Below are positions 8,984 to 27,178 of a stretch of 32,979 nt of DNA, in pieces. The position numbers were made by a program, and so were the translations under genes. Below the pieces are notes generated by a model. It ran no database searches and was not told where the DNA came from. It was given only the letters and a program-made list of their open reading frames with translations. The DNA is from Acidimicrobiia bacterium (GTDB lineage: Bacteria; Actinomycetota; Acidimicrobiia; Spongiisociales; JAHEDJ01). The stretch lies in NCBI GenBank assembly GCA_029210695.1, contig JARGFH010000042.1, forward strand, positions 1-32,979, given 5' to 3'. Position 1 is the stretch's first letter. The number at the start of each line of letters is the position of its first letter.

Positions 8984-9011
8984 CGCGACTCGCGACTCGC
9001 GACCAGCGACT
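8984..9011. repeat. Short tandem repeat, four 7-bp units
   Basis: Four consecutive units CGCGACT, CGCGACT, CGCGACC, AGCGACT fill the gap between hrpB and the convergent gene, touching the stop codon of the latter. Such a tract can change length by slippage. No function is evident. Confidence 0.8.
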
Positions 9012-9910: not shown

Positions 9911-9959
9911 ATTCTCCGCAGTGCTGTGGCGCGTGACGGTCCGTTGTATTGCCGAGAAA
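9911..9959 (+). repeat. 49-bp palindromic repeat, family A copy 1
   Basis: An imperfect palindrome beginning ATTCTCCGC and ending GCCGAGAAA, with the asymmetric core TGGCGCGTG off-centre. It aligns end to end with the copies at 9971 and 24673 without gaps and is the most degenerate of the three (several unpaired stem positions). It lies in the non-coding gap between two minus-strand genes. The asymmetric core gives the repeat a direction; all three copies point the same way. Confidence 0.85.
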
Positions 9960-9970
9960 ATCTGCACGTG

Positions 9971-10019
9971 TTTCTCAGCAATGCTGTGGCGCGTGACAGG
10001 CCATTGCATTGCTGAGAAA
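9971..10019 (+). repeat. 49-bp palindromic repeat, family A copy 2
   Basis: Begins TTTCTCAGCAATGC and ends GCATTGCTGAGAAA, with arms pairing over about 20 bases and two mismatches. The core TGGCGCGTGAC is shared with copy 1. It starts 60 bp after copy 1, leaving an 11-bp spacer. Its seventh base A pairs with T43; in copy 3 that pair is C-G, a compensatory change. It lies 10 bp downstream of the lppM-like stop, so it could end that transcript. Confidence 0.9.
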
Positions 10020-10029
10020 GTCCGGGGTT

Positions 10030-10818
10030 CTATCCGAATGGGTCGCCTTCCAGGGCTTCGCCGACGGGCACGGGAGCTTCGGCGACGAAGCTGTCTCCAT
10101 TGCCAATGATCGGCGCGGACGACCGTCGGTTCCACAGCACGAATGCGAGGGCGGCCACTAGCACGACGGCTGCGGCTGCCGCGATCGGGATTAGCGGGAG
10201 CCCTCCCCCTGGGGCAGACTCAGCGCTGATCACCCGTCCGGAGTCGGTCAAGTGAACCTTCCATACCAGGGTGCCGTCCGACTGCTCTGAATCGGCGTTG
10301 TGGGTGACGATCTCGCCGGGCAGCTTCACGAGGATCTCCGCGTCGAAGAAGGTCTCCGAGAGGTCGTCAACGGAGCCGCCGAGGTCGAATCCTTCGACGC
10401 CCTGGAGCCCCTGCTCGAGGGTCTCGCCGCTCATGGTGGCTTCGAACCGGAACCCGCCGCCTTCGGTGGTTTCTACAGTGAAGGTTTCGAACAGACCATC
10501 TTCGCCGCTGAACACGGTACCGGCGATCGAGCGAAGTTCGGCGAGATCATCGAAGCCGGTACTCGCCTCCATGCCGGTGAACTCACCCTCCGACCAGTCC
10601 GTCGAACTCCAACCGGCCGGCAGATCCGTCGTCAGGTCGGCGAGCGGGTCACCCTCCGGCGCGAACGAGCCCATTAGCTCCATGAGTTCTTCGTCGAACC
10701 CGAAGACGACGGAGGCTTTGCCCGATCCGTCGCTGTTGAGCTCGAAGCCCTGATCTACTTTCACTTTGCAGCCGGTCAGGAGAACGGCCAATACCACGAC
10801 TGGAATTAGTCGGCGCAT
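10030..10818 (-). CDS. LppM-like lipoprotein with C-terminal membrane anchor
   Basis: A 262-residue exported protein. The signal peptide ends in a lipobox, LLTGC, with the lipidated cysteine at residue 17. The extracytoplasmic domain begins VKVDQGFELNSDGSGKASVV, the pattern of LppM-type proteins, in which mycobacterial LppM is implicated in surface lipid and phagosome traits. A second hydrophobic segment at about 207-230 is followed by WNRR and a 30-residue acidic cytoplasmic tail, so the protein is held at both ends. SD-like AAGGAA lies five bases before the ATG at 10818. The gene is divergent from the HEAT-repeat gene. The LppM assignment rests on the domain's general pattern and architecture, not on alignment. 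Confidence 0.8.
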   Translation of the reverse strand: MRRLIPVVVLAVLLTGCKVKVDQGFELNSDGSGKASVVFGFDEELMELMGSFAPEGDPLADLTTDLPAGWSSTDWSEGEFTGMEASTGFDDLAELRSIAGTVFSGEDGLFETFTVETTEGGGFRFEATMSGETLEQGLQGVEGFDLGGSVDDLSETFFDAEILVKLPGEIVTHNADSEQSDGTLVWKVHLTDSGRVISAESAPGGGLPLIPIAAAAAVVLVAALAFVLWNRRSSAPIIGNGDSFVAEAPVPVGEALEGDPFG

Positions 10819-10937
10819 GAGATTCCTTGGTCGGTTCTAAGGAACTTCGGCTGCGAACCCGATGTCCTTGAGGTTTGTCGAACCTGGAGAAACAACTGGG
10901 GCCGCCGGGTTCTCCCGTTGCCGCGGGCCCGTGCCTC

Positions 10938-10943
10938 TACGAT
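10938..10943 (+). promoter_or_regulatory. -10 box TACGAT for leaderless HEAT-repeat gene
   Basis: TACGAT ends seven bases before the ATG at 10951, with no ribosome binding site between. It supports this start over an upstream in-frame one at 10918. Confidence 0.5.
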
Positions 10944-10950
10944 TACGGTG

Positions 10951-12042
10951 ATGACGGATCCACTCGACCTCGATGCCACCCGCTCCGCGATCGCGGCTCG
11001 CGACCTCACCGCAACTGCTTCCGGCTACCTGACCACCGACGTCGCCATGCGATTGCCCTTCGAGGCCCTCGGGCCTTTCAAGACTCTGCTCCGACGGTTC
11101 TTCTCGGCTGAGGCCTTCACCGCTGCGGATCGACAGGAACTCAGCGACACCGTAACCCCCCATATCGAGGGCGGCTGGTGGGAGCATGATCTCGGAGGCG
11201 GCATAACGCTCGCTCACGGGGTCACCGAGGGCCGGTACGTGATCCGGGTTTCCGGGGCTGCCTCGCCGGCTCCCTCTGTGTTTGCTCGGGTCTTCGACGG
11301 TCCGGTGGTCCCGGAAGCCACACCGCATCCCCGCAAGGTGAAGTTCGTGGTCGGGGGTCCGCCTGCACCAGGGAAATGGTATCTCCGGCACGACGCCGAC
11401 ACCGGCGAGGACGCGCGGGTGGCGCGATTGTTCGCAGAGCCAGACGTCACCGACGTCATGGTGGCCGGCGACTTCGTCACCGTCGGCATTGGTTCTCGAG
11501 CGTCGTGGGAACGCCGGCTCGAGCCCCTTCTGGCGCTGGTGACCGAGCTCTTTTTGGTCGAGGGCTTGCCATCGTCGGCTCCCGAACGGACCAGAGATGA
11601 ACTGCTCGACGAGGCCCGACGCTCAACCGGAGAACGCCCGGAGGAGCTCCATTTGCTCGACCCGGACCTGGGCCCGGAACGTGTCCGGCTGCTTGCCGCG
11701 ATCGATTCGGACGATCCAAGAGTGCGTAGGGTGGCACTGGCGATCCTCCTCGAATCCACCGATTCATCCGTGCGCGCCGCCGCGGTCGAGCAAGGGATGG
11801 GCGACCCCTCCCGGATTGTCAGACGCGCAACCATCGATTCGGCGGCGGACTCCGGTCTCGAGTCGTTCCGACCGGTGTTCGAGGCGGCTCTGCGCGACGA
11901 AGACGGGTGGATTCGCTGGAAGGCGGTGCGGGCCCTCGGCGAGTTGAGGGTCGGCACGAGTAGGCCGTTGGTCGAAGAAGCCTCGAAGGACGCCGACTTC
12001 CAGGTCCGGTTCGAAGCCGCCCGCGTTCTCAAGCGGGGATAG
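10951..12042 (+). CDS. NifU N-terminal-like domain protein with HEAT repeats
   Basis: A 363-residue soluble protein. Residues about 128-205 resemble the NifU/Nfu N-terminal domain: a KVKFVVG strand, an Ala/Arg-rich helix, then LFAEPDVTDVMVAGDFVTVG and a Trp-containing helix. The C-terminal 120 residues are HEAT-type repeats (phrases such as DDPRVRRVALAILLE, DEDGWIRWKAVRALGELR and DADFQVRFEAARVLKR), typical protein-interaction solenoids. The first 125 residues are unassigned. This order is seen in some uncharacterised proteins that may bind iron-sulfur scaffold partners, but the cysteines needed for cluster binding are absent, so a scaffold role for the protein itself is unlikely. A clean 12-bp hairpin follows the stop codon. 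Confidence 0.82.
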   Translation: MTDPLDLDATRSAIAARDLTATASGYLTTDVAMRLPFEALGPFKTLLRRFFSAEAFTAADRQELSDTVTPHIEGGWWEHDLGGGITLAHGVTEGRYVIRVSGAASPAPSVFARVFDGPVVPEATPHPRKVKFVVGGPPAPGKWYLRHDADTGEDARVARLFAEPDVTDVMVAGDFVTVGIGSRASWERRLEPLLALVTELFLVEGLPSSAPERTRDELLDEARRSTGERPEELHLLDPDLGPERVRLLAAIDSDDPRVRRVALAILLESTDSSVRAAAVEQGMGDPSRIVRRATIDSAADSGLESFRPVFEAALRDEDGWIRWKAVRALGELRVGTSRPLVEEASKDADFQVRFEAARVLKRG

Positions 12043-12043
12043 A

Positions 12044-12071
12044 AGAACCCAGGGCTTGCGCCCTGGGTTCT
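12044..12071 (+). terminator. Hairpin terminator, 12-bp perfect stem
   Basis: AGAACCCAGGGC (12044-12055) pairs perfectly with 12060-12071 around a TTGC loop, starting two bases after the HEAT-gene stop. There is no T-run, which is common for terminators in GC-rich actinobacteria. Confidence 0.75.
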
Positions 12072-12269
12072 GAGTCGGCCGGGTCCGGTGGGGCTGAGGG
12101 GGGTCAGCCTGGTGCCGGTACCGACCTTGGGGGATCGACCGGCGACAGGCTCTCAGGCCCACCCCGTCATCAATAGGGTCGCACGCCTCGTGTCGAGGGA
12201 GGCGATAGGCCTGTGCACGAATCCGTACCTATCGACCGGTCGGTAAGGAAGCGCCAGCGGTGTGCCCGG
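12072..12269. other. Intergenic region with no recognised RNA element
   Basis: About 200 bp between the terminator and the next promoter. It contains a CTCTCAGGCC stretch that recalls one glycine-riboswitch segment, but the paired upstream consensus is missing, and the downstream genes have no glycine link. No gene or convincing structure is seen. Confidence 0.4.
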
Positions 12270-12275
12270 TATGCT
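12270..12275 (+). promoter_or_regulatory. -10 box TATGCT for the lipoprotein/membrane protein operon
   Basis: TATGCT is separated by seven bases from the ATG at 12283. It predicts a leaderless bicistronic mRNA and supports this ATG over one 21 bases upstream. Confidence 0.55.
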
Positions 12276-12282
12276 CCCGGCC

Positions 12283-12732
12283 ATGCGAAGAGCCATATTT
12301 ACCGTGAGTGCGCTTGCTCTGATCGGCGTGGCCTGCGGGTCGGGGACCGACGCCGTCCCGACCGTTCCCGCGGTAGGGCCGACCTCCACTGTGGCTCCGG
12401 CAGCCACCACAACCTCCGAACCGGTAGCCGGAGACACGACGACGACTACGTTCCCGGCCACTACGACGACGCTGCCCGGCGTGACTGTGCTGGAAGTGGT
12501 GGTGGCGGAAGGCGAAGTCGCAGAACTCAGCGCAACTCTTGACGAAGAACTCCGGATCATCGTGTATGCGGATGAGGTTGATGAGGTTCATCTGCACACC
12601 TACGACATCCAGGTTGCCGTGGGGCCGGGTGCGCCGGCAGTAATCGAGTTCGTTGCTTCGATTCCCGGGATCTTCGAGATCGAGTTCGAGAAGGCCGGCT
12701 CCCTGATCGCCGAACTGCGGGTGGATCCGTGA
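12283..12732 (+). CDS. Lipoprotein with cupredoxin-like C-terminal domain
   Basis: A 149-residue lipoprotein with the lipobox IGVAC (cysteine 18), then a Thr/Pro/Ala-rich linker to about residue 65, then an 80-residue beta-sandwich-like domain. This domain has the cupredoxin feel: a VLEVVVAEGEVAEL strand, EVHLHTYDI in the position where plastocyanin-like domains carry a ligand histidine, and a terminal PGIFEIEFEKAG...IAELRV. The Cys ligand of a type 1 copper site is missing, so electron transfer is unlikely; copper or metal binding through His/Met remains possible. Its stop overlaps the start of the next gene (GTGA), so the two are translationally coupled and probably act together at the outer face of the membrane. 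Confidence 0.8.
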   Translation: MRRAIFTVSALALIGVACGSGTDAVPTVPAVGPTSTVAPAATTTSEPVAGDTTTTTFPATTTTLPGVTVLEVVVAEGEVAELSATLDEELRIIVYADEVDEVHLHTYDIQVAVGPGAPAVIEFVASIPGIFEIEFEKAGSLIAELRVDP

Positions 12733-14090
12733 GGCGATCGGTCCGTGGGGCTGTAACCTCGCTGATCGCCGCCGCCGTCGTCGTTGCCGTGCCGTCGCCA
12801 GCCTTCGCTCATGGGATTGGCGGACGCGCCGACCTTCCCGTTCCGCTCGGTTACTTCCTGGTCGGGGCCGGCGTAGTGCTGGTGGTGTCGTTCATTGCGC
12901 TCGCCGTGCTGTGGAAGATGCCCCGCTTGCAGGATGGTCCGCGCTCGGAGGCGATGAGCGTGCAGGTGGACGGTCTGCCTGCGACGGTGCTGTCCGTCGC
13001 CGGGGTGTTCTTCCTGTTTCTCGTGATCGGCGCCGGCTTATTCGGTGTGCAAAACGGAACCCGCAACGTGGCGCCTGCCACGGTATGGGTGGTGTTCTGG
13101 CTGGTTGTGCCGTTTCTTGGTGCGCTCGTCGGCAACATCTACACGCCACTGAACCCTTGGAGGACGCTATCCGGCTGGCTATTGCCGGACCAGGAGGATC
13201 GACAGGGCATTCTCGAACGCTGGGGCGTATATCCGGCCGGCGTCGCTTTTTTCGGGTTCACCTGGCTCGAGCTGGTGTGGCCGGATTCTGGTCAACCCAG
13301 AACGTTGGCAGCGGCCGCGCTGTTGTACACCTTCTACGTACTGCTGTTGGCGGGTTGGGGAGGTCGGGACGCCGGACTGCAATCGGGAGAGCTCTTCACG
13401 ACCTACAACCGGCTCATCAGTTCGGTCTCACCGTTCGGGCGAGATCGGGACGGCCGGTTGGTGCGGCGAGGATGGTTGCGTGCGTTGCCGGTACTGCCCG
13501 CCTGGCGGGGTCTGACGTTCTTTGTGGTTCTAATGATCGGCACGGTCAGTTACGACGGGTTGTCCGGGACATCATGGTGGAGGGAGCTCCTAGGGAGCAT
13601 GGCCGGCGAACTCTGGGCGGAGACCCTCGGGATGTTGACGATCATTGCAGTCATCGGCGGCGCCTACGCGGCGGCCTCGTGGGGGGCCGTGGCGTTGACC
13701 GGCGGCGGCGGGCGCAGTACCGGGGAGATTGCGGCCTCGTTCGCACACACTCTGGTGCCGATCGCTCTGGCCTACGCCTTCGCGCACTACTTCACGCTCG
13801 TGCTATTCGAGGGCCAGTTGTTCATCTCCACCCTCTCGGATCCGTTCGGTCGGGGATGGAATCTGTTCGGTACCGCAGACCGGGAGGTGAGCTACTTCCT
13901 CGCACCCGAGGTGATCTGGTATGTGCAGGTGGCGGCCATCCTGTTCGGACACATTGCCGGCGTGGTTTTGGCCCACGATCGCGCTCTGGCGGTATTCCCC
14001 GAGAAGACCGCGGTCAGGAGCCAGTACGCGATGCTGGTGCTGATGGTCTTGCTGACCAGCCTCGGCCTCACGATCCTCGCCGCCGGCTGA
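12729..14090 (+). CDS. Polytopic membrane protein, possibly fenitrothion hydrolase (FedB)-like
   Basis: A 453-residue protein with an N-terminal signal-like segment ending SPAFA-HG at residues 23-29, followed by about ten hydrophobic segments. If signal peptidase cuts after Ala27, the mature protein starts with His28, as in copper proteins that use an N-terminal histidine. Further His residues sit near membrane segments (AHYFTL, GHIAGVVLAHDRAL). I recall homologues in actinobacteria being named after FedB, a membrane protein reported to act on the organophosphate fenitrothion; this is recollection of a label, and the natural role is unknown. The GTG start at 12729 overlaps the cupredoxin-like lipoprotein gene by four bases. 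The stop is followed directly by palindrome family B. Confidence 0.75.
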   Translation: MRRSVRGAVTSLIAAAVVVAVPSPAFAHGIGGRADLPVPLGYFLVGAGVVLVVSFIALAVLWKMPRLQDGPRSEAMSVQVDGLPATVLSVAGVFFLFLVIGAGLFGVQNGTRNVAPATVWVVFWLVVPFLGALVGNIYTPLNPWRTLSGWLLPDQEDRQGILERWGVYPAGVAFFGFTWLELVWPDSGQPRTLAAAALLYTFYVLLLAGWGGRDAGLQSGELFTTYNRLISSVSPFGRDRDGRLVRRGWLRALPVLPAWRGLTFFVVLMIGTVSYDGLSGTSWWRELLGSMAGELWAETLGMLTIIAVIGGAYAAASWGAVALTGGGGRSTGEIAASFAHTLVPIALAYAFAHYFTLVLFEGQLFISTLSDPFGRGWNLFGTADREVSYFLAPEVIWYVQVAAILFGHIAGVVLAHDRALAVFPEKTAVRSQYAMLVLMVLLTSLGLTILAAG

Positions 14091-14094
14091 AAAC

Positions 14095-14150
14095 CCCGTT
14101 TTCGCGCGGGATTCCCACCGTATGAGGCGCGATTCCCGCGCGAAAACGGG
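14095..14150. repeat. Palindromic repeat, family B copy 2, at convergent junction
   Basis: A 17-bp perfect inverted repeat has its arms at 14095-14111 (CCCGTTTTCGCGCGGGA) and 14134-14150. It begins four bases after the stop at 14090 and ends ten bases before the convergent stop at 14160. The arm is identical over 16 bp to that at 2537-2552, while the interior differs. The shared placement suggests a terminator role; the shared sequence suggests a dispersed element. Confidence 0.87.
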
Positions 14151-14159
14151 ATTGGGGGC

Positions 14160-15104
14160 TTACTTGGTGAGGACCGAGCGGATTTCTATGACCTGATAGG
14201 GGGTCGTCTCGGTGTCTGTGTAGGGGTCGAGCGGGTAGATGCCGAGAGAGGATCCGGCCGCGTCGAGGAGCTCAAAGCGGCCCGTCCAGATCACCTCGAT
14301 CGCCAGCGAGTACAGGCCCTTGGTGTTGTAGGTGTACGTTCTGGCCGGTTCCTCTTCGGTCCCGGAGATGAAGCGGTAGTGATCAACCGGCGGCGCGACC
14401 ACGTCACCCGGCGTAATGAAGCCGATCGACTCCGTATCTCCGTTGTCGAAAGTCCAGTGCACGGCGGCAACCCAGGCATCGACCAGCGTCGTGAACCCAC
14501 CGGCTGAGGCGGTCAGCGAGATCGTGGTCTCCGCGGGATCCCAGCCCGGCGTACCCGGGTCGAACCACAACCACATCTCCATGCCGGTAACCCCCGTGGG
14601 GTACCCGTCGACGAGCGGGCTCGGGCTGAGCGACAAGTTCGGATCCGGGAGAGCGGCCGCCGCCGCGTCCCATACATCGAGGTCTGGCACCGGCGGCGGG
14701 CCGCAATAGGGCCGGGTCACATCGCCATGGTTCGGTCCCGGATTGATGAGCTCGAGTCCAGACGCGCCGCCGATCAGGCCGATGCCGTCTCCGCCGGGGA
14801 TCCACACGATGATGTCGGAGCCAATCAGCTCCCCCCTGGCCGGGTCGTCGCCGTGGAACAGCCATTCGCGCCAGCCGCCTTCATCAACGGCGCATTCGGG
14901 TGCCGGGCCCTCGAACGAGTAGCGGAGATGGAACCCCTCCGGGGCCGTGAACGAGCCGTCCGACTGCACGCTGATCCAGGTAGTGACCTCTCCGTCGGCG
15001 ATTCCGCCTCCGCCCTCTTCACCGCCCGCGTGAGCCGTTCCCTGCAACCCAACCAGGAAGAGAACTGTGGCGATAAGCAGCGAGCTGAGCCGGAAGTTCG
15101 TCAC
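14160..15104 (-). CDS. Secreted protein with PKD-like C-terminal region
   Basis: A 314-residue exported protein with a Sec signal peptide (residues 1-26, ending GTAHA). The mature part is acidic and rich in Gly, Pro, Asp and Trp. Near the C-terminus is a PKD-like stretch: WTFDNGDTESIG, then ARTYTYNTKGLYSLAIEVIWTG, the usual Trp-Asp-Gly-Asp and Tyr-x-Gly-Tyr order of that fold. Two cysteines (ECAVDEG and RPYCGPP) could form a disulfide outside the cell. Similar actinobacterial proteins are of unknown function and are often found beside a small lipoprotein, as here. The ATG overlaps the stop of the upstream lipoprotein gene by four bases (ATGA), so the pair is coupled. Confidence 0.78.
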   Translation of the reverse strand: MTNFRLSSLLIATVLFLVGLQGTAHAGGEEGGGGIADGEVTTWISVQSDGSFTAPEGFHLRYSFEGPAPECAVDEGGWREWLFHGDDPARGELIGSDIIVWIPGGDGIGLIGGASGLELINPGPNHGDVTRPYCGPPPVPDLDVWDAAAAALPDPNLSLSPSPLVDGYPTGVTGMEMWLWFDPGTPGWDPAETTISLTASAGGFTTLVDAWVAAVHWTFDNGDTESIGFITPGDVVAPPVDHYRFISGTEEEPARTYTYNTKGLYSLAIEVIWTGRFELLDAAGSSLGIYPLDPYTDTETTPYQVIEIRSVLTK

Positions 15105-15733
15105 TGTTCTCCGCCTACGATTTCACCAAGCCTTCCGGTGACTCCGACGCGCCATCGTCCGTCCGTCCCGCGTTCAAGCCCGAATAGGACAACTTTGTTG
15201 ACGTACTCGTCCCGTTCGAGGCGCATCCGTTGGCCTGATTCATCCACCACGAACTGAGGCGACCATGAGTCTGTGATCTGAAGTAGTACGTTCCCGTTTT
15301 CGAACTCCTGGGTGACTATCGCCTCCTCTACGACGATGCCACCGTCATCTTGGACCCATCCTTTGTCTGCGTATTCATTGAGGAAGTCGATCACCGCGCT
15401 GTAGCAGTCGCAACTCTCGAGATACACGAGATCGAGATACTCCGGACCCAGAACAGGAATGGTGTGCAGGTAGCTCACGTACTCCAAGATCGCCACGATG
15501 GCTTCGGTGGGGTCCTCGACGTCATTGTTGGGGAGGAGGATTTCGACGGGTTCTGTTGTCGTTGTGGTGGCCGGGGATGTCGTTGTCGTCGTCGCGGGGA
15601 GCGTTGTCGTCGTCACGGGTGTCGCAGGCATCGTCGTCGGCAGTGCTGAGGTCGTGGCCGTCGACGAGGTAGAGCAGGCACCGAGAAAGAGCATCGCTGC
15701 GACGAGCCATATCGAGGTTCCCTGGATCCGCAT
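15101..15733 (-). CDS. Thr-linker lipoprotein, partner of the PKD-like protein
   Basis: A 210-residue lipoprotein with a lipobox ending LGAC (cysteine 20), then a linker of about 45 residues made almost wholly of Thr, Pro and Ala (repeated TTTTLPATTTTT-like runs), probably a cell-wall-spanning and perhaps glycosylated spacer. The C-terminal 145 residues form a mixed alpha/beta domain with features of the NTF2-like/Mce-associated kind: an early helix IVAILEYVSYL, a CDC pair, and final strands VNKVVLFGLER and RWRVGVTGRLGEIV. No enzyme motif is evident. It is the first gene of a coupled pair with the secreted PKD-like protein, so both likely act in one surface structure. Confidence 0.78.
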   Translation of the reverse strand: MRIQGTSIWLVAAMLFLGACSTSSTATTSALPTTMPATPVTTTTLPATTTTTSPATTTTTEPVEILLPNNDVEDPTEAIVAILEYVSYLHTIPVLGPEYLDLVYLESCDCYSAVIDFLNEYADKGWVQDDGGIVVEEAIVTQEFENGNVLLQITDSWSPQFVVDESGQRMRLERDEYVNKVVLFGLERGTDGRWRVGVTGRLGEIVGGEQ

Positions 15734-15911
15734 CCCTTACCTATCGTTAGCAAACGACTACCAACAAGAGTACCCAGTGATTTCCTGCGCTGCCAGCAGG
15801 TCGGTAACTCACTTTTCGCGGTTTCCGCACTAGTTCGTACCTCGCCGGGCGACGCAAGGCGGAGGCATGGAACGAGCGCAGGCTCGGCCGCTCTGACTGG
15901 ATGAGCCTAGG

Positions 15912-15917
15912 TAGAGT
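15912..15917 (+). promoter_or_regulatory. Candidate -10 box TAGAGT for the VOC gene
   Basis: TAGAGT fits TANNNT and would give a leader of about 42 bases that contains the strong GAGGAGGAGAG ribosome binding site of the gene at 15966. No clear -35 was seen. The remaining intergenic DNA from 15734 shows only a small CCTGC/GCAGG stem. Confidence 0.35.
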
Positions 15918-15965
15918 TCGAAGGAGCGGGCGACCCAACAGCCCGCCAACCACTGAGGAGGAGAG

Positions 15966-16745
15966 ATGCCGGAGCGCACCTCATACGCACAGGGGATCCC
16001 TAACTGGGTGGACCTCCAAACTTCAGATCAGCCCGCAGCCAAGGCGTTCTATGGCGAGTTGTTCGGCTGGACCTACAGAGATGAGCCGGTCCCGCAAGGC
16101 GGCGTCTATTCGATGGCTTACATCGACGACAAGACGGTGGCGGCGATCTCACCTCAAACCCCGGACATGGCCGCGCAGGGCGTTCCGCCGCTGTGGAACA
16201 CCTACTTCGCCGTCGACGATGTCGACGCAACGGCGGCCAAGGTCGCCGGGGCCGGTGGGATGGTGGCGATGGAGCCGTTCGACGTGATGGACGCCGGCCG
16301 GATGGCCGCGGTCATGGACCCGACCGGCGCCTTCTGCATGCTCTGGCAGGCGAAGAACCACATAGGTGGACAAATCGTCAACGCACCGGGAGCCCTGATC
16401 TGGAATGAACTCGTGACCGCAGAAACGGGCAAAGCCGTGGATTTCTACGAGGCGATTCTCGGACTCGAGGGCGAAGCAACCGACATGGGCACCGGACCGT
16501 ACACGACCTTCAAAGTGGGGGGCGAGGCCGTGGCCGGCTCGATGCTTCCTCCCGAGGACGGCATACCGAGTCACTGGGCCGTCTATTTCGGAACCGCCGA
16601 TACCGCCGCCACCTGCGAGAAGGCGAAGGAGTTGGGAGGCGCGGTCGAAGCCGGTCCATTCGACACACCGATCGGGCCGATGGCGGTCATCCGCGATCCG
16701 CAGGGGGCCTACTTCTCCGTGTTCCAGGTGCCGCAAGACGGTTAG
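15966..16745 (+). CDS. Two-domain VOC (glyoxalase fold) protein, CFP30B/Rv0577-like
   Basis: A 259-residue protein of two vicinal-oxygen-chelate domains (about 8-125 and 135-257). It opens MPERTSYAQGIPNWVDLQTS, very close to what I recall of Mycobacterium CFP30B/Rv0577 (also about 260 residues). It has the matching phrases LFGWTYRDEPVPQGGVYSMA, PPLWNTYFAVDDVDA, MDPTGAFCMLWQA, LIWNELVT and IRDPQGAYFSV. The mycobacterial protein has been linked to methylglyoxal handling and to host TLR2 recognition; the enzymatic activity is not established. Metal-binding positions are only partly conserved, so catalysis is uncertain. A near-perfect GAGGAGGAGAG Shine-Dalgarno region touches the ATG. It appears to be monocistronic. 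Confidence 0.92.
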   Translation: MPERTSYAQGIPNWVDLQTSDQPAAKAFYGELFGWTYRDEPVPQGGVYSMAYIDDKTVAAISPQTPDMAAQGVPPLWNTYFAVDDVDATAAKVAGAGGMVAMEPFDVMDAGRMAAVMDPTGAFCMLWQAKNHIGGQIVNAPGALIWNELVTAETGKAVDFYEAILGLEGEATDMGTGPYTTFKVGGEAVAGSMLPPEDGIPSHWAVYFGTADTAATCEKAKELGGAVEAGPFDTPIGPMAVIRDPQGAYFSVFQVPQDG

Positions 16746-16854
16746 CGCACGCTCGAGAAGGAGGAGTTGGACACCCGGCCCCTCCAGCATCTTCTGTCGA
16801 GGAACCGCCTCGAATGCCGGCCGGGCGGATCCGGCACCCAAGTCCTTTCTGTTG

Positions 16855-16880
16855 GGAACGCGTTCTTTCCATGCTGCGTT
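16855..16880 (+). promoter_or_regulatory. Candidate ECF sigma-factor promoter GGAAC-N17-CGTT
   Basis: GGAAC at 16855-16859 and CGTT(G) at 16877-16881 are separated by 17 bases. This is the form of promoters read by SigE/SigH-type extracytoplasmic-function sigma factors in actinobacteria. Transcription would begin around 16888, leaving a leader of about 40 bases with the strong GGAGGAGGG site before GTG 16930. It suggests that the downstream surface protein responds to envelope or oxidative stress. Such short motifs can occur by chance. Confidence 0.45.
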
Positions 16881-16929
16881 GAGAGGATGGTGAGGGCGTA
16901 GGACGTGAAGGGTCTGGAGGAGGGTCGTC

Positions 16930-19128
16930 GTGGCCAACATCGCGCATCCGGGAACCATCGGCGCAGAGCCCATCGTGCGGCCGGACAGGCCCGGCAACAA
17001 CTGGGTTCCGTGGGCGCTCGCAGCCCTCGTGGTTATCTCGGGGTTTGGACTGGGTGCGCTCTACTCCTCCGCCGTCTCGACTGAGACCGCCGCCCCCGAT
17101 CTCGCCCCCCCGCCGCCCCTGGACGAGGCCTCGCCGCTCCCACCCATCGAAGCCGCAGTTGCCCCCGTCTTCGGTGTGCCATCCCCGACGACGCCATCCG
17201 GTCGAGCGTTGGGCCCAACAGAAGTGTCTCTCTTCACCCAGTTCCCCCTGATGGCTTTTGACTGGGAATCCGTCACTATTCCAACGGAAGCCGGTTTCGA
17301 GTTCCGTTGGTTCGGGCGGCTGGGTGACGGGTACACCGTTGTCGGAGTCGAATGGCCTGACGACGGATTCGCCCAGAATCTCACGACGTGGACTTCGCCA
17401 GACGGCCAAACCTGGGCAAGGGCTGGCGTACTCACCATCCCGGGCCGGATGTCATTACACCAGATCACCGGGTGGGGGGACCGGGTCTTTGCCCTCGGCG
17501 AGACCTGGGGTGAGGGCGATTCGGGCAGTCGCGTGCTCTACTCGACGACCGACGGAGTCGATTGGACCGAGCTTCCGTTGCCTCGAGTAGCGGAGTCCTC
17601 CGACTACGTGTACATCCAGGGTGTCGCCTCGAACGACACCGGCATCGTTGTTGCGCTCACGGTTGAGTCGTACCCGACCGAACCACCACAGATACTCGAG
17701 TTTCCGGGTTACACCATCGAGATCGATCATCGGGCGGCCGTCTACAGGCTGATCGACGCCGCCGGCACTGTCATCCTGACGGGTTCTACGGCCGACATCT
17801 GGCGCTCGGAGGACAACGGCCAGGGCTTCTACGACCCCCTTACCGGTGAGTTGATTACCGTGGTGCCCTGGCAGGTTTGGGAGCAAGGTTGGGGCTCCGC
17901 CTACGAGGGCAGGGAGTCGACCTCGCCGCTTCCGGTCCCGATCGAACCAAGTCAGCCCTACGTGGCGCCATCGATCGTGATCGAGTGGGATGGCTTCGTC
18001 GTAACACTCGACGAAAACGAGGGCGTCTTCGACGTCATCGAGGCCGATTCGGGCGAGGTGGTGTGTTCGGGTCCCATCGACTTCATCTGGCGTGGTCCCG
18101 CTCCATCGTTCGTCGACCAGTCCACCGGTGAGGTGCTCTTTGCGGTCACCTGGGAGGAATGGGATCAGGCCGAGATGGCGTTCTGGGATACCCGCCAGGA
18201 GGTCTACGACTCCGGGTGGTATCCCACCAGGACCGTCGTTCTGTTCTCCGCCGACGGGTTCGAGTGGGAAGAGACTCTCCTTTCGACTAGTTCGGCCGGG
18301 GCGTCGCTGACGGTCACAGCCACCGACGAGGAGTTCGTGCTATTCGTGAATTCGTACGGCGAATACGGGGAGAGCAGCTCGTTGTGGACCTCGGTTGACG
18401 GCGTCGACTGGGAGGCCGCCGAATCCTCCGACCAGGGAGAGCGGTACCTGCACAACACGGTTGTGACCGCCGGTGGCCTGATGGGTATTGGCGATTGGCA
18501 GGGTGGTCAGGGAGTCTGGTCGTCTGCGGACGGACTCACCTGGGTCACCGAGTTCGGCGTCGGGCCACAGGATGACGGCCGGCACGTCTGGCTCAACGCA
18601 GTTGCCGACGGCCCGCTCGGATCCGTTGTGGCGGGTACCCAGGAAGGCCCCTTCAACTACCAGTTGTTGCGCGTGTCAAAAGACGGCATGACGGCCGAGT
18701 TCGAAGGCGATTTCATCGTCCGGATCACAGATGACTCCACCGGTGATGTGGTCCTCTTCCTCACCTGGAACGAATTCGAATCCGGCGCTCTGGGTGATCG
18801 CATCGTCTACGCCGACGAAGAAACCCGGTTCTTCGATACCGACGGGAACCTGATCCTGGCGATCACCAATGAAGAAGCCCGTGACGCATATCGCGTTCGT
18901 GATGGGAATTCTCAACCGGTCGTGCGGCAGATCATGTTCATCGAATCCGATGGAGAATGGTACGAAGTCGAGGTCGATGGCGCCGCCGTCGGCGCCATCG
19001 CCGGGTTGGTCGTGGGCGAGGAGGAGGTGCTGCTTGGCGGCATGGATTGGGGCGAGACCCGCTACTGGGAAGAGGACTACTCCGTCGGTGCCAGCGTCGT
19101 GATCATGATCGGCACCCCTGCTGGATAG
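16930..19128 (+). CDS. Large membrane-anchored beta-propeller-like protein with repeated inserted modules
   Basis: A 732-residue protein with a short cytoplasmic N-terminus, one membrane helix (about 26-46), a Pro/Ala/Glu-rich spacer to about residue 90, and a large extracellular part. This has sialidase/BNR-like motifs of the type TSPDGQTWARAG, STTDGVDWTELPLP, SADGFEWEETLL, TSVDGVDWEAA and SADGLTWVTEF, indicating propeller blades. Between blades sit three related modules, at about 258-317, 349-414 and 587-655. Each has a strand such as IEWDGFVVTL, a central V(I/L)...D.TGE motif and a (T/P)W..(W/F)... ending. This repeated insertion is unusual. No catalytic residues of sialidases (Arg triad, Asp box acid) are evident, so a binding or scaffold role is more likely. 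GTG start with GGAGGAGGG upstream. Confidence 0.8.
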   Translation: MANIAHPGTIGAEPIVRPDRPGNNWVPWALAALVVISGFGLGALYSSAVSTETAAPDLAPPPPLDEASPLPPIEAAVAPVFGVPSPTTPSGRALGPTEVSLFTQFPLMAFDWESVTIPTEAGFEFRWFGRLGDGYTVVGVEWPDDGFAQNLTTWTSPDGQTWARAGVLTIPGRMSLHQITGWGDRVFALGETWGEGDSGSRVLYSTTDGVDWTELPLPRVAESSDYVYIQGVASNDTGIVVALTVESYPTEPPQILEFPGYTIEIDHRAAVYRLIDAAGTVILTGSTADIWRSEDNGQGFYDPLTGELITVVPWQVWEQGWGSAYEGRESTSPLPVPIEPSQPYVAPSIVIEWDGFVVTLDENEGVFDVIEADSGEVVCSGPIDFIWRGPAPSFVDQSTGEVLFAVTWEEWDQAEMAFWDTRQEVYDSGWYPTRTVVLFSADGFEWEETLLSTSSAGASLTVTATDEEFVLFVNSYGEYGESSSLWTSVDGVDWEAAESSDQGERYLHNTVVTAGGLMGIGDWQGGQGVWSSADGLTWVTEFGVGPQDDGRHVWLNAVADGPLGSVVAGTQEGPFNYQLLRVSKDGMTAEFEGDFIVRITDDSTGDVVLFLTWNEFESGALGDRIVYADEETRFFDTDGNLILAITNEEARDAYRVRDGNSQPVVRQIMFIESDGEWYEVEVDGAAVGAIAGLVVGEEEVLLGGMDWGETRYWEEDYSVGASVVIMIGTPAG

Positions 19129-19169
19129 TCACCGGGTGAGGCCAGTGCCTTCCTCCACCTCTTGTCTGC

Positions 19170-19175
19170 TTATCT
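19170..19175 (+). promoter_or_regulatory. Weak -10 box TTATCT for the YgjV-like gene
   Basis: TTATCT is followed by a six-base gap to GTG 19182, the same spacing as the other leaderless starts, but its first two bases are TT instead of TA. No ribosome binding site is present. Confidence 0.3.
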
Positions 19176-19181
19176 AGGGGT

Positions 19182-19835
19182 GTGAACTGGGATCTCATCG
19201 TTGAACTGATCGGGTATCTCGCTTCGGCACTGATCCTCGTCTCTGTCACCCGGACTTCGATCCTCAAGCTGCGCCTGTTCAGTCTGGCCGGAGCGGTGAC
19301 CTTCGTTGTGTACGGCCTGATCATCGAGGCCTATCCAATCGCCCTCGTGAATGTGGTCATCATCGGAATACAGATCTTCTTCTTGCGCGACCTCATGTCG
19401 AAGAAACGCGAATACTTCACGACACTCGAGGTCCTTGCCGATTCGCGGTACCTGGAGTACTTCCTGAAGTTCCACGAAGACGACATCCGCACGTATCGAC
19501 CGGATTTTCGGTTTGAGCCGCGCGAGGACCAAATCCGGATCTTCCTCCTCCGGGATCTGGTGCCGGCCGGCCTGCTGATCGGGAGGCCGTGCACGGATCA
19601 CTCGTTCGAGGTGGAACTCGACTACGTGATTCCTCGCTATCGGGATTTCCGGGTCGCCGAGTACTTGTTTTCAGAACGTTCCGGCGTATTTACCGACCCT
19701 CTTTGCTCACGGGCATGGAGCAAGCCCGGTACCGAGGTCAATGTTGCGTACCTCGAACGCATGGGGTTCAAGGCGGCGACCGACCCCGGGGGCAACACCG
19801 TCTACGTTAAGGACCTCGTTCCGCTGCGGACCTAG
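19182..19835 (+). CDS. YgjV-like membrane protein with C-terminal GNAT-like domain
   Basis: A 217-residue protein. Three closely spaced hydrophobic helices (about 5-24, 28-49 and 51-70) resemble the YgjV/Imp inner membrane family. They are followed by a cytoplasmic domain of about 145 residues. The phrases ELDYVIPRYRDFRVAEYLF and NVAYLERMGFK near the C-terminus match the last strand-helix part of a GNAT acetyltransferase-like fold, where a helix leads to a Tyr-x-x-x-Met-Gly-Phe motif. A full acetyl-CoA P-loop (RxxGxG/A) is not obvious, so catalytic activity is doubtful. The function of this architecture is unknown. GTG 19182 is the start; it is convergent with the M20 amidohydrolase gene, 18 bases away. 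Confidence 0.78.
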   Translation: MNWDLIVELIGYLASALILVSVTRTSILKLRLFSLAGAVTFVVYGLIIEAYPIALVNVVIIGIQIFFLRDLMSKKREYFTTLEVLADSRYLEYFLKFHEDDIRTYRPDFRFEPREDQIRIFLLRDLVPAGLLIGRPCTDHSFEVELDYVIPRYRDFRVAEYLFSERSGVFTDPLCSRAWSKPGTEVNVAYLERMGFKAATDPGGNTVYVKDLVPLRT

Positions 19836-19853
19836 GCCGGGGGCCGGGTATCG

Positions 19854-21047
19854 CTAGCCGAGGAAGTCCAGCGCCACTGCGGTGTGGAGGGCCACCCCTG
19901 CGGCCATGGCCTCTTCATCGAAGCGGACCAGGTTGGAGTGATTGACCGGCGCCTTTCCCGGTTCGAGATCATCGGGGCACGCTCCAAGAAACACCATCAC
20001 GCCCGGTACCTTCTGAAGCACGTAGCTCCAGTCCTCGGCTCCCATGATCGGCGTTGGAGCCTGGATGACGCGTTCTTCGCCGAGGAGGTTGCCGGCGATT
20101 GCCGTCACCTCGGCGGCCACCGTCTCATCGTTGAGCGTGACGGGGTAGCCGCGCTCGATGGCGACGTCGACGGTGACACCATGGGCCGCCGCGATACCGG
20201 CCGAGACCCGCTCGATCATGGCGTGGATCTGATCCCTTCGCTCCTCGGACACGGTGCGGGTCGTGCCCGTGAGAGTGGCGGTGGCCGGGATGACGTTGTA
20301 GGCGGTGCCCGCCGCCATCTGGCCGAACGTGAGCACGGCCGGGTCGAAGACATCCACGGTACGAGTCAGCGCCACTTCGGTGGCCATGATGATCTCGGCC
20401 GCCACCGGCACGGGATCAACGGCGTTCCACGGCGCCGAGGCGTGTCCACCTTGTCCGTGCACGGTGATGGTCACTTTGTCGGCAGCTGCCATGTAAGGCC
20501 CCGGCTTCAGGTGAAGGGTGCCGGCCTCGAAGAGGCTTGTCACGTGAATAGCGAACGCCCGGGTCGGTGATGGGTCAACCTGCTCGAGGAGTCCCTCTTC
20601 GAGCATGAAACGAGCACCGAAGTGGCCCTCTTCTCCTGGCTGGAACATGAAGAGGACCTTGCCGGCCAGACCGTCTTTTCGAGCAGAGAGCATGCGGGCG
20701 GCGCCGATGAGCATCGACGTGTGGAGGTCGTGGCCGCACGCGTGCATACGCCCGGTGTGTTCCGAGCTGAAGTCCAGACCGGTGTCTTCCGGCATGGCGA
20801 GACCGTCCATGTCGCCGCGCAACACAATCGTGGGGCCCGGTCGGCCGCCTTCGAGGACTGCGGCGATGCCGGAGGTCGTCTCGTGGAGGTGGATTGTCAA
20901 CGGGAGTCCTTCGAGTGCCTCGAGCACGGCTGCTCTGGTCTTTGGCAGGCTGTTGCCGACCTCGGGGATGCGGTGAAGGGTCCGGCGCAGCTCAACGAGC
21001 TGGGGGAGCATCTGTCGTGTTTCTTCGAGCAGCGTGGCGTAGTCCAT
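19854..21047 (-). CDS. M20-family amidohydrolase
   Basis: A 397-residue metallohydrolase of the M20 amidohydrolase group (hippurate hydrolase / N-acyl amino acid hydrolase-like). The metal ligands are visible: C104 and H106 in MHACGHDLH, E139-E140 in QPGEEGH, H168 in FAIHV, and the C-terminal His in APVNHSN. An LRGDMDGLAMPE motif precedes them, and a dimerisation domain (about residues 175-295) carries VHGQGGHASAP. The Cys in HACGH marks the amidohydrolase subgroup, which splits amide or N-acyl bonds of small substrates. ATG 21047 is chosen over the TTG six bases upstream because it lies eight bases after a TAGCAT -10 box. The gene lies downstream of fadIJ in the same direction but with its own promoter, so it is probably a separate unit. 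Confidence 0.93.
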   Translation of the reverse strand: MDYATLLEETRQMLPQLVELRRTLHRIPEVGNSLPKTRAAVLEALEGLPLTIHLHETTSGIAAVLEGGRPGPTIVLRGDMDGLAMPEDTGLDFSSEHTGRMHACGHDLHTSMLIGAARMLSARKDGLAGKVLFMFQPGEEGHFGARFMLEEGLLEQVDPSPTRAFAIHVTSLFEAGTLHLKPGPYMAAADKVTITVHGQGGHASAPWNAVDPVPVAAEIIMATEVALTRTVDVFDPAVLTFGQMAAGTAYNVIPATATLTGTTRTVSEERRDQIHAMIERVSAGIAAAHGVTVDVAIERGYPVTLNDETVAAEVTAIAGNLLGEERVIQAPTPIMGAEDWSYVLQKVPGVMVFLGACPDDLEPGKAPVNHSNLVRFDEEAMAAGVALHTAVALDFLG

Positions 21048-21055
21048 AGGCAAGG

Positions 21056-21061
21056 ATGCTA
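21056..21061 (-). promoter_or_regulatory. -10 box TAGCAT for the amidohydrolase gene
   Basis: On the minus strand TAGCAT ends eight bases before ATG 21047. There is no ribosome binding site between. It fits the leaderless pattern seen across the window. Confidence 0.45.
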
Positions 21062-21147
21062 GAAGAAGGAGGGCGGGTCACGGCCAATGGCAGCTCAGTC
21101 GCGCTAACCCTTCCCCCGCCCGCCTTCTCGAGGAAGGCGATAGCGCC

Positions 21148-23316
21148 TCAGCCGGCAGCCCGGAACTTGTCCCCGTTCCTCGCGTTCTCGGTCAGGATCT
21201 TCGCCGGCGTGAAGCGGTCTCCGTGTCTGGCGGCCAGGTCTTCGAGATCGGATACCACCCGATCCGCTCCCACCTGGTCGATCCAGAAGAACGGGCCGCC
21301 TCGAAACGGCGGGAACCCCAGGCCCATCACTGCCCCGATGTCGCCGTCGCGAGCCGATCCGAGGATCCCCTCTTCGAGGCATCTGGCCGCCTCGTTGGCG
21401 AAAGCCAACCACAGTCGCTTCTGAATCTCGCCGGGCGAGATCTCGGTTCTCGGTCCGAGACCAAGCGCCGCGTAGACGGTTTGATCCACATCTCCGCGCT
21501 GGCCCTTGTCGTCGTAGAGGTAGAAGCCGCGGCCGTTCTTCCGACCCTTTCGATCGTCTGAGATGAGGCCCTCCATCATCGAGGGTCCGCGCATACGCTC
21601 CCCGAAGGCGTCGATGAGAATGACGGCGATCTTGGCTCCAACGTCGATGCCGACCTCGTCGGCGAGCAGTACCGGTCCGACCGGAAAGCCCCAGCCGACC
21701 ATTGCCTTGTCGATGGCCTCGACGGAAGCGCCTTCGGCCAGGAGATACATCGCCTCGTTCGAGTAGGGCCCGAGGACGCGGGTCGTGTAGAACCCCGTCC
21801 CGTCTTTGACCACGATCACCGTCTTGCCCTGCTTCTTACCGAACTCGACCGCAGTGGCGGTTGCCCAGTCGGCCGTCTGGTCGGTCACGATGATCTCGAG
21901 CAACGGCATCTTGTCCACCGGCGAGAAGTAGTGCATGCCGAGCACCGTCTCGGGTCGGGACGAGGCCGAAGCAATGCTGGTGATCGGTAGCGATGAGGTG
22001 TTCGAGGCGAACACCGTGTCCGGCCGGGTGATGGCTTCGACTTCGCGAAGAATCGACTGCTTGAGTTCGATGTTCTCGAAGACAGCCTCGATGACGAGGT
22101 CGCTGTCTTCGAACCCGCGCCAGCCGGTCGACCCGGTGACGCGGAGCATTGCCTTCTCGCCTTCGAAGTCCCGCAGTCGCTTGCGCTTCACCTGCCCGCC
22201 AATGACCTTCTGTACATAGGCGAGGGCCCTCCCCACGCCGGCCGTGTCGATCTCTTTGATGCGAATCGGGGTCTGGGCCTTGAGTGTGGTGACCGCCGCG
22301 ATTCCTCCACCCATGAGGCCGCCGCCGATCATCGCTACTTTCGAAACCTGCTTTGGTTCGACGCCCTGCGCCACCCAGGTCTCCCTTTCGAGGGAGCGAG
22401 AAGAGAAGAAGATCGATCGCAGTGCCAGCGATTCCGGTGAAACAACGAGCTCACCGAAGAACCTGGCCTCGGCGGCATACCCGGCTGCCGGACCGTCCTC
22501 GATGCCGATCCGAACAGCTTCGAGCGCCCGCTCGGGCGCCGGGTAGAGGCCTTTGGTCTGCTTCAGCAGCTTGTCCTTCGCCTGCTTGAACAAGACGTTG
22601 CGGCCAACAGGGTTGGCTTCGAGGGCTAGTTCCTGAATCCCGTCCATGGAGAACAAGCTGCGTTTCTTGGTGCGACCGTCCGGAGACTCGATGGCCTCCC
22701 GGGCACGGCGCGTTGCCACCTCCATGAGCTTCTCGGTCGGGACGACTTCGTCGACCAGTCCGAGGCTCTTTGCTTTGCGGCTGCGGGCCGGGCGTCCGGT
22801 CAGGATGAGGTCGAGCGCGTCGGCGATTCCGATCAACGCCGGGAGGCGCTGGGTGCCGCCTCCCGCCGGGATAATGCCCAGTTGAACCTCGGGTTGTCCG
22901 AGTTGGGTCTTGGGGTGGTCGGTGCAAATGCGTGACGAGGCGCACAGCGCCAGTTCCGTCCCGCCGCCGAGGCACGCCCCGGAGATGGCTGCTATGACGG
23001 GCTTGCCGTGTTTGGTGTGGAGTCGCTCCACCCGGGCAAACATCTCGTGGGCGGCGAGAATCGTCTTCTCTGCGCCGATCGCGTCGGTCAGTTCGGCGAA
23101 CCAGCGGATGTCGGCTCCGACCAGGAAGTCCTTCTTGGCCGACCCCCAGACCACAGCCTCGATCGAATCGTCCGTCTCCAACCGGTCGAGGACGGTGTTG
23201 AAGTCGTCGAAGATGACCGGCCCGAGGGTGTTCATCGGTTCGCCGGCCCGGTCCATCAGGACCGTTGCGATACCGTCATCAACTGTCAGTTGGAAGTGGG
23301 TGAGTTCGTTGGTCAT
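21148..23316 (-). CDS. fadJ: Fatty acid oxidation multifunctional alpha subunit (FadJ/FadB)
   Basis: A 722-residue enzyme joining enoyl-CoA hydratase (about 1-190) to L-3-hydroxyacyl-CoA dehydrogenase (about 310-720) for two consecutive steps of fatty acid beta-oxidation. In the hydratase half, GADI and ACLGGGTELAL form the oxyanion region. The two catalytic glutamates are E121 and E143, two residues further apart than in E. coli FadB as I recall it. The dehydrogenase half has the NAD motif GGGLMGGGIA, then ASNTSSLPI and GMHYFSPVDKMPLLEI, which supplies the catalytic histidine. ATG 23316 is chosen because it overlaps the fadI stop in TGATG, which couples translation; the upstream Arg-rich extension is not family-like. 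It is the second gene of a fadI-fadJ operon. Confidence 0.95.
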   Translation of the reverse strand: MTNELTHFQLTVDDGIATVLMDRAGEPMNTLGPVIFDDFNTVLDRLETDDSIEAVVWGSAKKDFLVGADIRWFAELTDAIGAEKTILAAHEMFARVERLHTKHGKPVIAAISGACLGGGTELALCASSRICTDHPKTQLGQPEVQLGIIPAGGGTQRLPALIGIADALDLILTGRPARSRKAKSLGLVDEVVPTEKLMEVATRRAREAIESPDGRTKKRSLFSMDGIQELALEANPVGRNVLFKQAKDKLLKQTKGLYPAPERALEAVRIGIEDGPAAGYAAEARFFGELVVSPESLALRSIFFSSRSLERETWVAQGVEPKQVSKVAMIGGGLMGGGIAAVTTLKAQTPIRIKEIDTAGVGRALAYVQKVIGGQVKRKRLRDFEGEKAMLRVTGSTGWRGFEDSDLVIEAVFENIELKQSILREVEAITRPDTVFASNTSSLPITSIASASSRPETVLGMHYFSPVDKMPLLEIIVTDQTADWATATAVEFGKKQGKTVIVVKDGTGFYTTRVLGPYSNEAMYLLAEGASVEAIDKAMVGWGFPVGPVLLADEVGIDVGAKIAVILIDAFGERMRGPSMMEGLISDDRKGRKNGRGFYLYDDKGQRGDVDQTVYAALGLGPRTEISPGEIQKRLWLAFANEAARCLEEGILGSARDGDIGAVMGLGFPPFRGGPFFWIDQVGADRVVSDLEDLAARHGDRFTPAKILTENARNGDKFRAAG

Positions 23317-24623
23317 CAGCGCTCCAATACGACGGCGGCGCCGAGACCCCCGGCGGCGCACTGGGTGATCAGGGCGGCGCCCGAATCACGACGGTTCAAC
23401 TCGTTGGCCATGGTTAGGAGTTGCCGTGCTCCCGTGGCGCCGAACGGGTGGCCGAGGCTGATCGACCCACCGTAGAGGTTGAGCTTCTCGGCTGGTATCT
23501 CACCGATGGCCTTCTTACGCCCGAGATGGGTGCTGGCAAACTCGTCGGACCCGAACGCCTGGAGAATCGACAGCATCTGCGCGGAGAACGCCTCATGGAT
23601 GTCGACGACGTCGATGTCTTCCATGGTCAACCCTGCCCGATCGAGCGCAATAGGCGAGGCGAATGCCGGGCCGATCAGGAGTTGCCAGTTTGGGTCAACT
23701 GCGGCAAAGCCGTAGGACCGCAGGAATGCCTTCGGGACGAAGCCGAGCCGCTCGGCGGTCTTCTCCTCCATCAGAATGAGGGCCGAGGCGCCGTCCGTGA
23801 GCGGTGACGCATTGCCGGCGGTGACGGTGCCGTATCGCCGGTCGAACACCGGCTTGAGGGTTGACAGCTTCTCGAGGGTCGAGTCGGCCCGTGGGATGTT
23901 GTCACGCTCGACGACGGTTGTGTACCGCGGCGGGACGGGGAAGGCCATGACCTCGTCGTCATAGATGCCTTTGTCCCATGCCTCAACGGCCTTCTGGTGA
24001 GAACGGAACGCGTACTCGTCCTGCGCTTCACGGGAGATGCCGTTCATCCTGGCCATCTTCTCGGCACTGTCGCCCATACTTCCGCCGGTCGACCGGTCGG
24101 CGATGGCAGGCGGATGTGGGGCGAGATCCTTCGGGCGGAGGCCGGCCAGCGCCTTGACCCTCGACATCGGATCTCTGGCACTCTGCGCTTTCATCATGAC
24201 GTCGACGAACTCATCGCTGAACATGACGGGTGGCCTGGAGAGCGAGTCGGCGCCTCCGGTGACGACGATGTCGGCCTCACCCAGCAAGATGGCCTGGGCG
24301 CCGTCGACGAACGACTGGGTGCTGGTGGCGCACGCCCTGCTGACGGAGAAGGCGTCCACCGTGTCAGGCATGTTGCATGAGAGAACGATTTCTCGAGCGA
24401 TGTTGGGCGACGACACGTCCTGGACGACGCTCCCGTATACGACCCGATCGATTTGACCGCCGTCCAGACCGGAGCGGTTCAGCAGTTCCGTGACAACAGC
24501 CTGAGCGAGACTGAGGGTGGTGACGTTCTTGAAGACCGTTCCGGATTTGGCGAATGGTGTGCGGAGTCCGTCGACGATGGCGACTCGTCGCCCGTCTACG
24601 ACTCCCGGCCGTTTTTTGGCCAT
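23316..24623 (-). CDS. fadI: Acetyl-CoA C-acyltransferase (3-ketoacyl-CoA thiolase) FadI
   Basis: A 435-residue thiolase that cleaves 3-ketoacyl-CoA with CoA, the last step of beta-oxidation. The nucleophilic cysteine is C98 in SRACATSTQSF. The His residues lie in VDIHEAFSAQ and SLGHPFGATG, and the second cysteine is in TQCAAGGLGAA. Its length and insertion pattern (for example the PPAIADRSTGGSMGDSAE stretch) match FadI, the partner of FadJ, rather than short-form acetyl-CoA acetyltransferases. GAGGAG lies six bases before the ATG. The gene is first in the fadI-fadJ operon, and its upstream region contains palindrome family A copy 3 in a divergent promoter gap. Confidence 0.95.
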   Translation of the reverse strand: MAKKRPGVVDGRRVAIVDGLRTPFAKSGTVFKNVTTLSLAQAVVTELLNRSGLDGGQIDRVVYGSVVQDVSSPNIAREIVLSCNMPDTVDAFSVSRACATSTQSFVDGAQAILLGEADIVVTGGADSLSRPPVMFSDEFVDVMMKAQSARDPMSRVKALAGLRPKDLAPHPPAIADRSTGGSMGDSAEKMARMNGISREAQDEYAFRSHQKAVEAWDKGIYDDEVMAFPVPPRYTTVVERDNIPRADSTLEKLSTLKPVFDRRYGTVTAGNASPLTDGASALILMEEKTAERLGFVPKAFLRSYGFAAVDPNWQLLIGPAFASPIALDRAGLTMEDIDVVDIHEAFSAQMLSILQAFGSDEFASTHLGRKKAIGEIPAEKLNLYGGSISLGHPFGATGARQLLTMANELNRRDSGAALITQCAAGGLGAAVVLER

Positions 24624-24672
24624 GAACGCTCCTCGGGTCGGTTGTTACTCACCAGTATCGCGTGATCTTCCG

Positions 24673-24721
24673 TTTCTCCGCAATGCAATGGCGCGTGGTG
24701 ATGCATTGCATTGCGGAGAAA
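24673..24721 (+). repeat. 49-bp palindromic repeat, family A copy 3
   Basis: The best-preserved copy: an 18-bp perfect stem (24673-24690 TTTCTCCGCAATGCAATG with 24704-24721) around a 13-base loop GCGCGTGGTGATG. It lies between the divergent fadI and DUF6351 genes, about 50 bp from the former start and 75 bp from the latter, so it cannot be a simple transcription terminator for either. It could form a cruciform or serve as a binding site between the two promoters. Confidence 0.92.
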
Positions 24722-27075: not shown

Positions 27076-27087
27076 GGAGGCTGGGAG

Positions 27088-27119
27088 AGGGGGTCGGTCG
27101 GGAAACCGACCGACCCCCT
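27088..27119 (+). terminator. Strong hairpin terminator, 14-bp stem with GAAA loop
   Basis: AGGGGGTCGGTCGG (27088-27101) pairs perfectly with 27106-27119 around a stable GAAA tetraloop. It lies 13 bases after the stop codon at 27075, and no T-run follows. Confidence 0.85.
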
Positions 27120-27178
27120 GCGTTCCGGGTGGTCGACCACGGGTTCGTTTCTCCCGGAAGCCCTTGTCTGATCTGCCC

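Follow-up and report, generated by a model that had tools for sequence, protein, structure and literature searches.

A large family of REP-like palindromes behind stop codons in a genus of uncultured actinobacteria and its possible role as a protein-binding gene-end element

Introduction

What kind of element is a 49-bp palindrome that occurs three times, always in the same direction, in a short stretch of actinobacterial DNA? The usual explanations for REP-like palindromes are RAYT mobilisation and RNA hairpins, and neither fits well for the copies in the window, by which we mean the whole 32,979-nucleotide stretch analysed here (contig 42 of the host assembly G000, a 3.9-Mb draft in 181 contigs). 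The three palindromes are members of a large family, with dozens to more than 100 copies, in a genus of uncultured actinobacteria. We describe the architecture, placement and evolution of this family, hereafter family A, and weigh the explanations that may account for it.

Results

The window copies align without gaps over 49 bp, as originally predicted, and have in common the blocks TTCTC-x-GCA, TGGCGCGTG and GAGAAA; a search of the window with the consensus at up to three mismatches returns exactly these three, with none expected from 100 shuffles. Copies 1 and 2 (9911-9959 and 9971-10019, both on the plus strand) form a same-direction pair, 60 bp from start to start and 11 bp from edge to edge, in which copy 1 is the most degenerate unit and the intervening sequence (9960-9970) is an unconserved spacer with a length that is fixed across the family. 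The pair abuts the 3' end of a minus-strand gene for an LppM-domain protein (10030-10818; PF21946, 1e-08), whose stop codon is separated from the end of copy 2 by about 10 bp, and faces on its opposite side a minus-strand gene without a Pfam match (9011-9814). Copy 3 (24673-24721, plus strand) stands alone, flanked by a thiolase gene (minus strand, start 24623) and a divergently oriented DUF6351 gene (plus strand, start 24796). The DUF6351 protein has its closest relative in the actinobacterial MAG Ww199 (92% identity), followed by Acidimicrobiia MAGs at 66-69%, which makes Acidimicrobiia the probable class of the host. Relative to shuffled sequences, folding is strong for copy 2 (z of -6.95 as RNA and as DNA) and copy 3 (-6.34 as RNA, -7.28 as DNA), and copy 1 forms a weak hairpin (-2.71 and -0.29, respectively).

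Other repeats and hairpins share the window with family A. Palindromes of a second family (CGTTTTCGCGCGGGA...TCCCGCGCGAAAACG), with a length of about 50 bp, a variable core and single units, are found at 2537-2590 and 14094-14150 and in about 38 places of the host genome, in gaps between convergent ORFs and with a design similar to that of family A. A GC-rich hairpin lies behind the DUF6351 gene (27076-27140, the hairpin itself at about 27090-27119), and at the orthologous site of the related genome G002 stop codon and hairpin are separated by a family A unit; two adjacent 25-bp copies of a repeat containing TGAAAATTGACCCCC stand near the contig end (32910-32959).

Searches of the host genome gave 39 strand-hits to the consensus at up to three mismatches, 59 copies by half-site search of the fetched stretches and 69 units when 50-bp units were admitted, all of which are lower bounds because a family model gives at least 150 matches, both strands counted. 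The genome-wide count suggested by the original prediction has turned up many more than three copies (at least 69 units in the host MAG), and relatives carry them as well, with 40 units in 0.78 Mb of the sister species G001 and the family occurring in each of the five genus genomes. Across the order (138 genomes, 61 genera), pattern matches are confined to the host genus and to one genus of another family, here g4, which carries a diverged version (arm TTTCTCGTCAATGC, 49 bp, spacers of 11-12 bp); the remaining 59 genera gave no pattern match, and the viral contigs searched contained no family A elements.

Units are 49-50 bp long and consist of the genus-wide arm TTTCTCnGCAATRC, a clade-specific part (mostly TGG in G000 and G001, TGTTG or TGTCG in G002 and G003) and an asymmetric core that makes the family polar, in agreement with the predicted orientation of the element. 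Many units stand in same-direction pairs, the two members of which agree in polarity in all 31 pairs with clear polarity. An edge-to-edge spacer of 11 bp separates the units in 27/27 G000 pairs and 10/11 G001 pairs (10 or 11 bp in G001 and G003, 10-12 bp in G002), a rule that copies 1 and 2 of the window obey; the spacer sequence has no consensus across pairs. Because of the 11-bp edge-to-edge spacing, half-site centres lie about 30 bp apart: by arithmetic from the alignment they fall at 10, 40, 70 and 100 for 49-bp units, an even 30-bp pitch. Units are homogenised within pairs (44.1 versus 36.7 identical positions of 49), and the identity between spacer and flank slightly exceeds that in permutations (p 0.005 in G000, p 0.035 in G001); a duplication of the unit plus its flank may give rise to pairs, for which these data are suggestive only. 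At locus L168 of G004, a unit at 1501-1549 is closely followed by one with both arms changed (GCAGTGC/GCACTGC), a rare two-sided change.

When mapped to gene ends, as also proposed originally, most units follow a stop codon at a distance of 0-18 bp. The 40 units of the 0.78-Mb G001 sequence make up 28 sites, 22 of which are no more than 18 bp away from a stop codon as placed by a simple codon-usage gene caller rather than curated annotation, versus 2.2 +/- 1.4 when positions are drawn at random from intergenic sequence and 13.7 +/- 1.7 when they are drawn at random from within the same gaps. By gap type, nine sites are convergent (54 gaps of at least 49 bp), 17 co-directional (240 gaps) and two divergent (90 gaps); inspected by eye, the genes flanking divergent sites share no DNA-binding protein. 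The core has no preferred direction relative to the gene: in G002 and G003 it runs the same way as the co-directional gene in 14 cases and the opposite way in 15.

Constraint acts on specific bases in each arm and on spacing, not on pairing. Between 25 orthologous units of G000 and G001, constrained positions changed in 2/550 cases and the others in 76/625, the near-zero arm variation being partly built in because copies were found through their arms, a search that favours conserved ones; neither the fixed spacing nor the mutual independence of the arms is a product of this arm-based search. Spacers of the same two genomes differ at 29/88 bases, and changes per base pair are one-sided in 62 cases and two-sided in five. 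The original prediction had derived selection on the structure from stem pair 7:43, which is indeed C-C, A-T and C-G in copies 1-3, respectively, but is Watson-Crick in only 25/59 host-genome copies versus 28.3 expected under independence; the covariation at this pair is therefore not representative. Both the number of paired cells and the covariation score of G000 are lower than in all 500 shuffles, and Watson-Crick pairs at variable stem positions show no excess in any single genome (258 versus 299 expected under independence, 120 versus 142, 328 versus 340 and 421 versus 423). The arms covary in none of the genomes tested, and the proposed selection on base pairing is not borne out. In G000 even mismatches are conserved, mostly A.A at 15:35 and A.C at 16:34, states that were read after orienting the copies by the same positions, with the same mismatch excess in the unoriented table. 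Rfam gave no match in the window and only a tRNA in the relatives.

Sites are retained between species. They were kept in 18/18 orthologous gaps of G000 and G001 (about 91% identity) and 13/13 of G002 and G003 (about 90%), or 31/31 in all; when the flanking genes are about 75% identical, a distance at which most intergenic flanks can no longer be aligned, 18/23 and 7/9 tightly mapped sites are still occupied (25/32) and the remaining orthologous sites are empty (5/23 and 2/9). The gene at 9011-9814 has orthologues without the upstream element in G002 and G003, and three sites differ between species by one 60-bp period, being occupied by a pair in one and by a lone unit in another. Ww199 and G002 both have a unit at the position of copy 3, with the core reversed in G002 relative to G000; the direction of the core can therefore differ even where the site itself is kept. 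Some gain and loss is thus present, but with sites retained between species and constrained bases that hardly change, the alternative offered by the original prediction, a structured source sequence that spreads and decays, is a poor fit.

The copies within a genome change in sequence as one set without leaving their positions, and each clade has its own arm consensus. Position 18 of the arm illustrates this at orthologous sites: clade 1 has G there in 42/44 arms, clade 2 has T or C in 46/48. Moreover, 22/24 clade 2 units are on average closer to unlinked units of their own clade than to their own orthologue. Fixed positions combined with genome-wide sequence change point to a putative trans-acting partner or to homogenisation between copies.

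Discussion

With a confidence that falls a little short of even, we favour the view that family A is a REP-like gene-end element composed of duplex half-sites for a putative co-evolving DNA-binding protein. Protein binding is the best explanation because the half-sites form a symmetric duplex array with fixed spacing and without covariation, and the recurrence of the 11-12-bp spacer in g4 despite its different arm sequence lends it further support. Each 49-50-bp unit would present two inverted half-sites in duplex DNA (TTTCTCnGCAATRC plus the clade-specific inner part) and each pair four half-sites of alternating direction with centres about 30 bp apart, and the element would serve as a binding platform for a putative sequence-specific DNA-binding protein of the lineage. 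The placement of the family suggests a role at transcription-unit ends, which the bound complex, sitting directly behind stop codons, may mark or insulate by acting as a roadblock, as a topological boundary or in topoisomerase recruitment, as is thought for REP/BIME and RIB elements. BIME-2 elements are gyrase sites (PMC6379681), and RIB elements at the 3' ends of transcription units bind IHF, according to a title cited in PMC12306157; family A, for which binding is putative, resembles these protein-binding repeats of E. coli in its place between genes or at transcription-unit 3' ends, whereas its sequence and architecture are unrelated to theirs. We count against a protein the flip of the copy 3 core between G000 and G002 and the empty orthologous sites, and the clade-wide change can also be the product of gene conversion, or of a mobile copy that repeatedly took the place of others.

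Copying of this kind is central to a second account, possible though rather doubtful in our view, in which family A is a REPIN- or REP-like non-autonomous mobile repeat with an unknown or lost transposase that settles behind stop codons as the only tolerated places, its similarity and clade consensus resulting from copying or gene conversion and not from host function. High copy number, intergenic 3' placement, the pair/single variation by one 60-bp period, the empty sites, the genome-wide prevalence of a clade-specific consensus and the homogenisation within pairs would all be expected of such a repeat. The likeness to REPs tagged with CGTC or GTAG extends to short intergenic palindromes near ORF 3' ends, enrichment in convergent gaps, many copies and species-specific sequence types, and the CGTC class has no known transposase either (PMC3733652). 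However, REPs are 20-40 bp in size (PMC3733652) and carry an unpaired GTAG or CGTC end tag, neither of which is found in the 49-50-bp family A with its genus consensus TTTCTCnGCAATRC...GAGAAA; the arms of g4 do contain CGTC, but inside both paired arms and not as an end tag. REP dimers are mostly head-head or tail-tail, head-tail dimers being absent or rare in most families (PMC3733652), whereas family A pairs are direct in 31/31 cases and have a spacer that is fixed at 11 bp but variable in sequence. The retention of 25/32 sites at about 75% identity, the restriction of changes to particular positions and the arms without covariation likewise set family A apart from a mobile REP. REPINs, which are duplicated by RAYTs (PMC8049555), are similar in having conserved outer inverted parts, a variable middle and a long-lived population in their lineage, but family A pairs are direct instead of inverted, orthologous positions are conserved, and Y1/RAYT transposases (PF01797) were found in none of the five genus genomes (drafts, 56-98% complete, positive controls), a search that covers one transposase family. 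The initial classification as a REP-type or miniature mobile element therefore holds insofar as family A is a dispersed, polar, REP-like palindrome family at gene ends; the RAYT-like or Y1 transposase for which a search had been proposed is not supported. When ends of a larger transposon were sought as solitary arms, 13/93 arm matches in the 0.78 Mb of G001 had no partner 25-45 bp away, and target-site duplications could not be read from the empty orthologous sites, which are too diverged.

It is distinctly improbable, in our assessment, that the elements act as RNA hairpins, either as bidirectional terminators or as stabilisers of 3' ends, with the pair as a tandem-hairpin terminator. Strong hairpins directly behind stop codons, enrichment in convergent gaps (9/54) and one G003 site that has an ordinary hairpin where G001 carries the element speak for this possibility, and clusters of hairpins with fewer than 15 bases between them have been reported as terminators (PMC8355165), an arrangement like that of family A pairs, whose two hairpins follow stop codons. 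Yet family A shows sequence-specific constraint without covariation, and even a deficit of it, conserved mismatches at 15:35 and 16:34 in G000, random polarity relative to the gene despite an asymmetric core, copies in divergent gaps such as copy 3, no match in Rfam and, in G002, the unit that intervenes between the DUF6351 stop codon and a hairpin also kept in the window. An intrinsic terminator is likewise hard to reconcile with stems that start with TTTCTC and end with GAGAAA, since a T-rich 5' end and an A-rich 3' end are the reverse of a U-tract terminator, and no T run follows directly behind the window copies or, in general, behind pairs; a crude count of terminators beside elements is uninformative because terminators were detected at only 3-4% of gene ends.

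We rejected a gene cassette reading, in which attC-like recombination sites would exchange a gene and its 3' palindrome as a unit, as highly implausible, mainly for the random polarity (14 same, 15 opposite) and also for the many sites between convergent genes, the lack of visible arrays and the absence of R-box sequences (GTTRRRY/RYYYAAC, by inspection of the consensus), even if sites follow stop codons and, at two G001 sites, a gene separates two direct units that in G002 form just a pair, gene gain beside a boundary being common anyway. The two genes, of 176 aa (C50:143896-144569, L189) and 161 aa (C21:13722-14351, L202), each lie between two same-direction units, and the pair at the orthologous G002 sites has an 11-bp spacer.

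Returning to a protein-binding gene-end element, we consider unlikely, but worth stating, its furthest-reaching form: that a DNA-binding protein of the lineage and its gene-end sites, with their alternating half-sites at a pitch of about 30 bp, co-evolve, so that boundary or termination sites would have switched their recognition sequence together and in place, as part of a previously undescribed gene-end system that depends on a protein but not on direction. Should a protein be responsible, family A would provide a natural set of sites for studying the joint change in specificity of a regulator and its many chromosomal sites, and may represent a gene-end marking system in this uncultured lineage.
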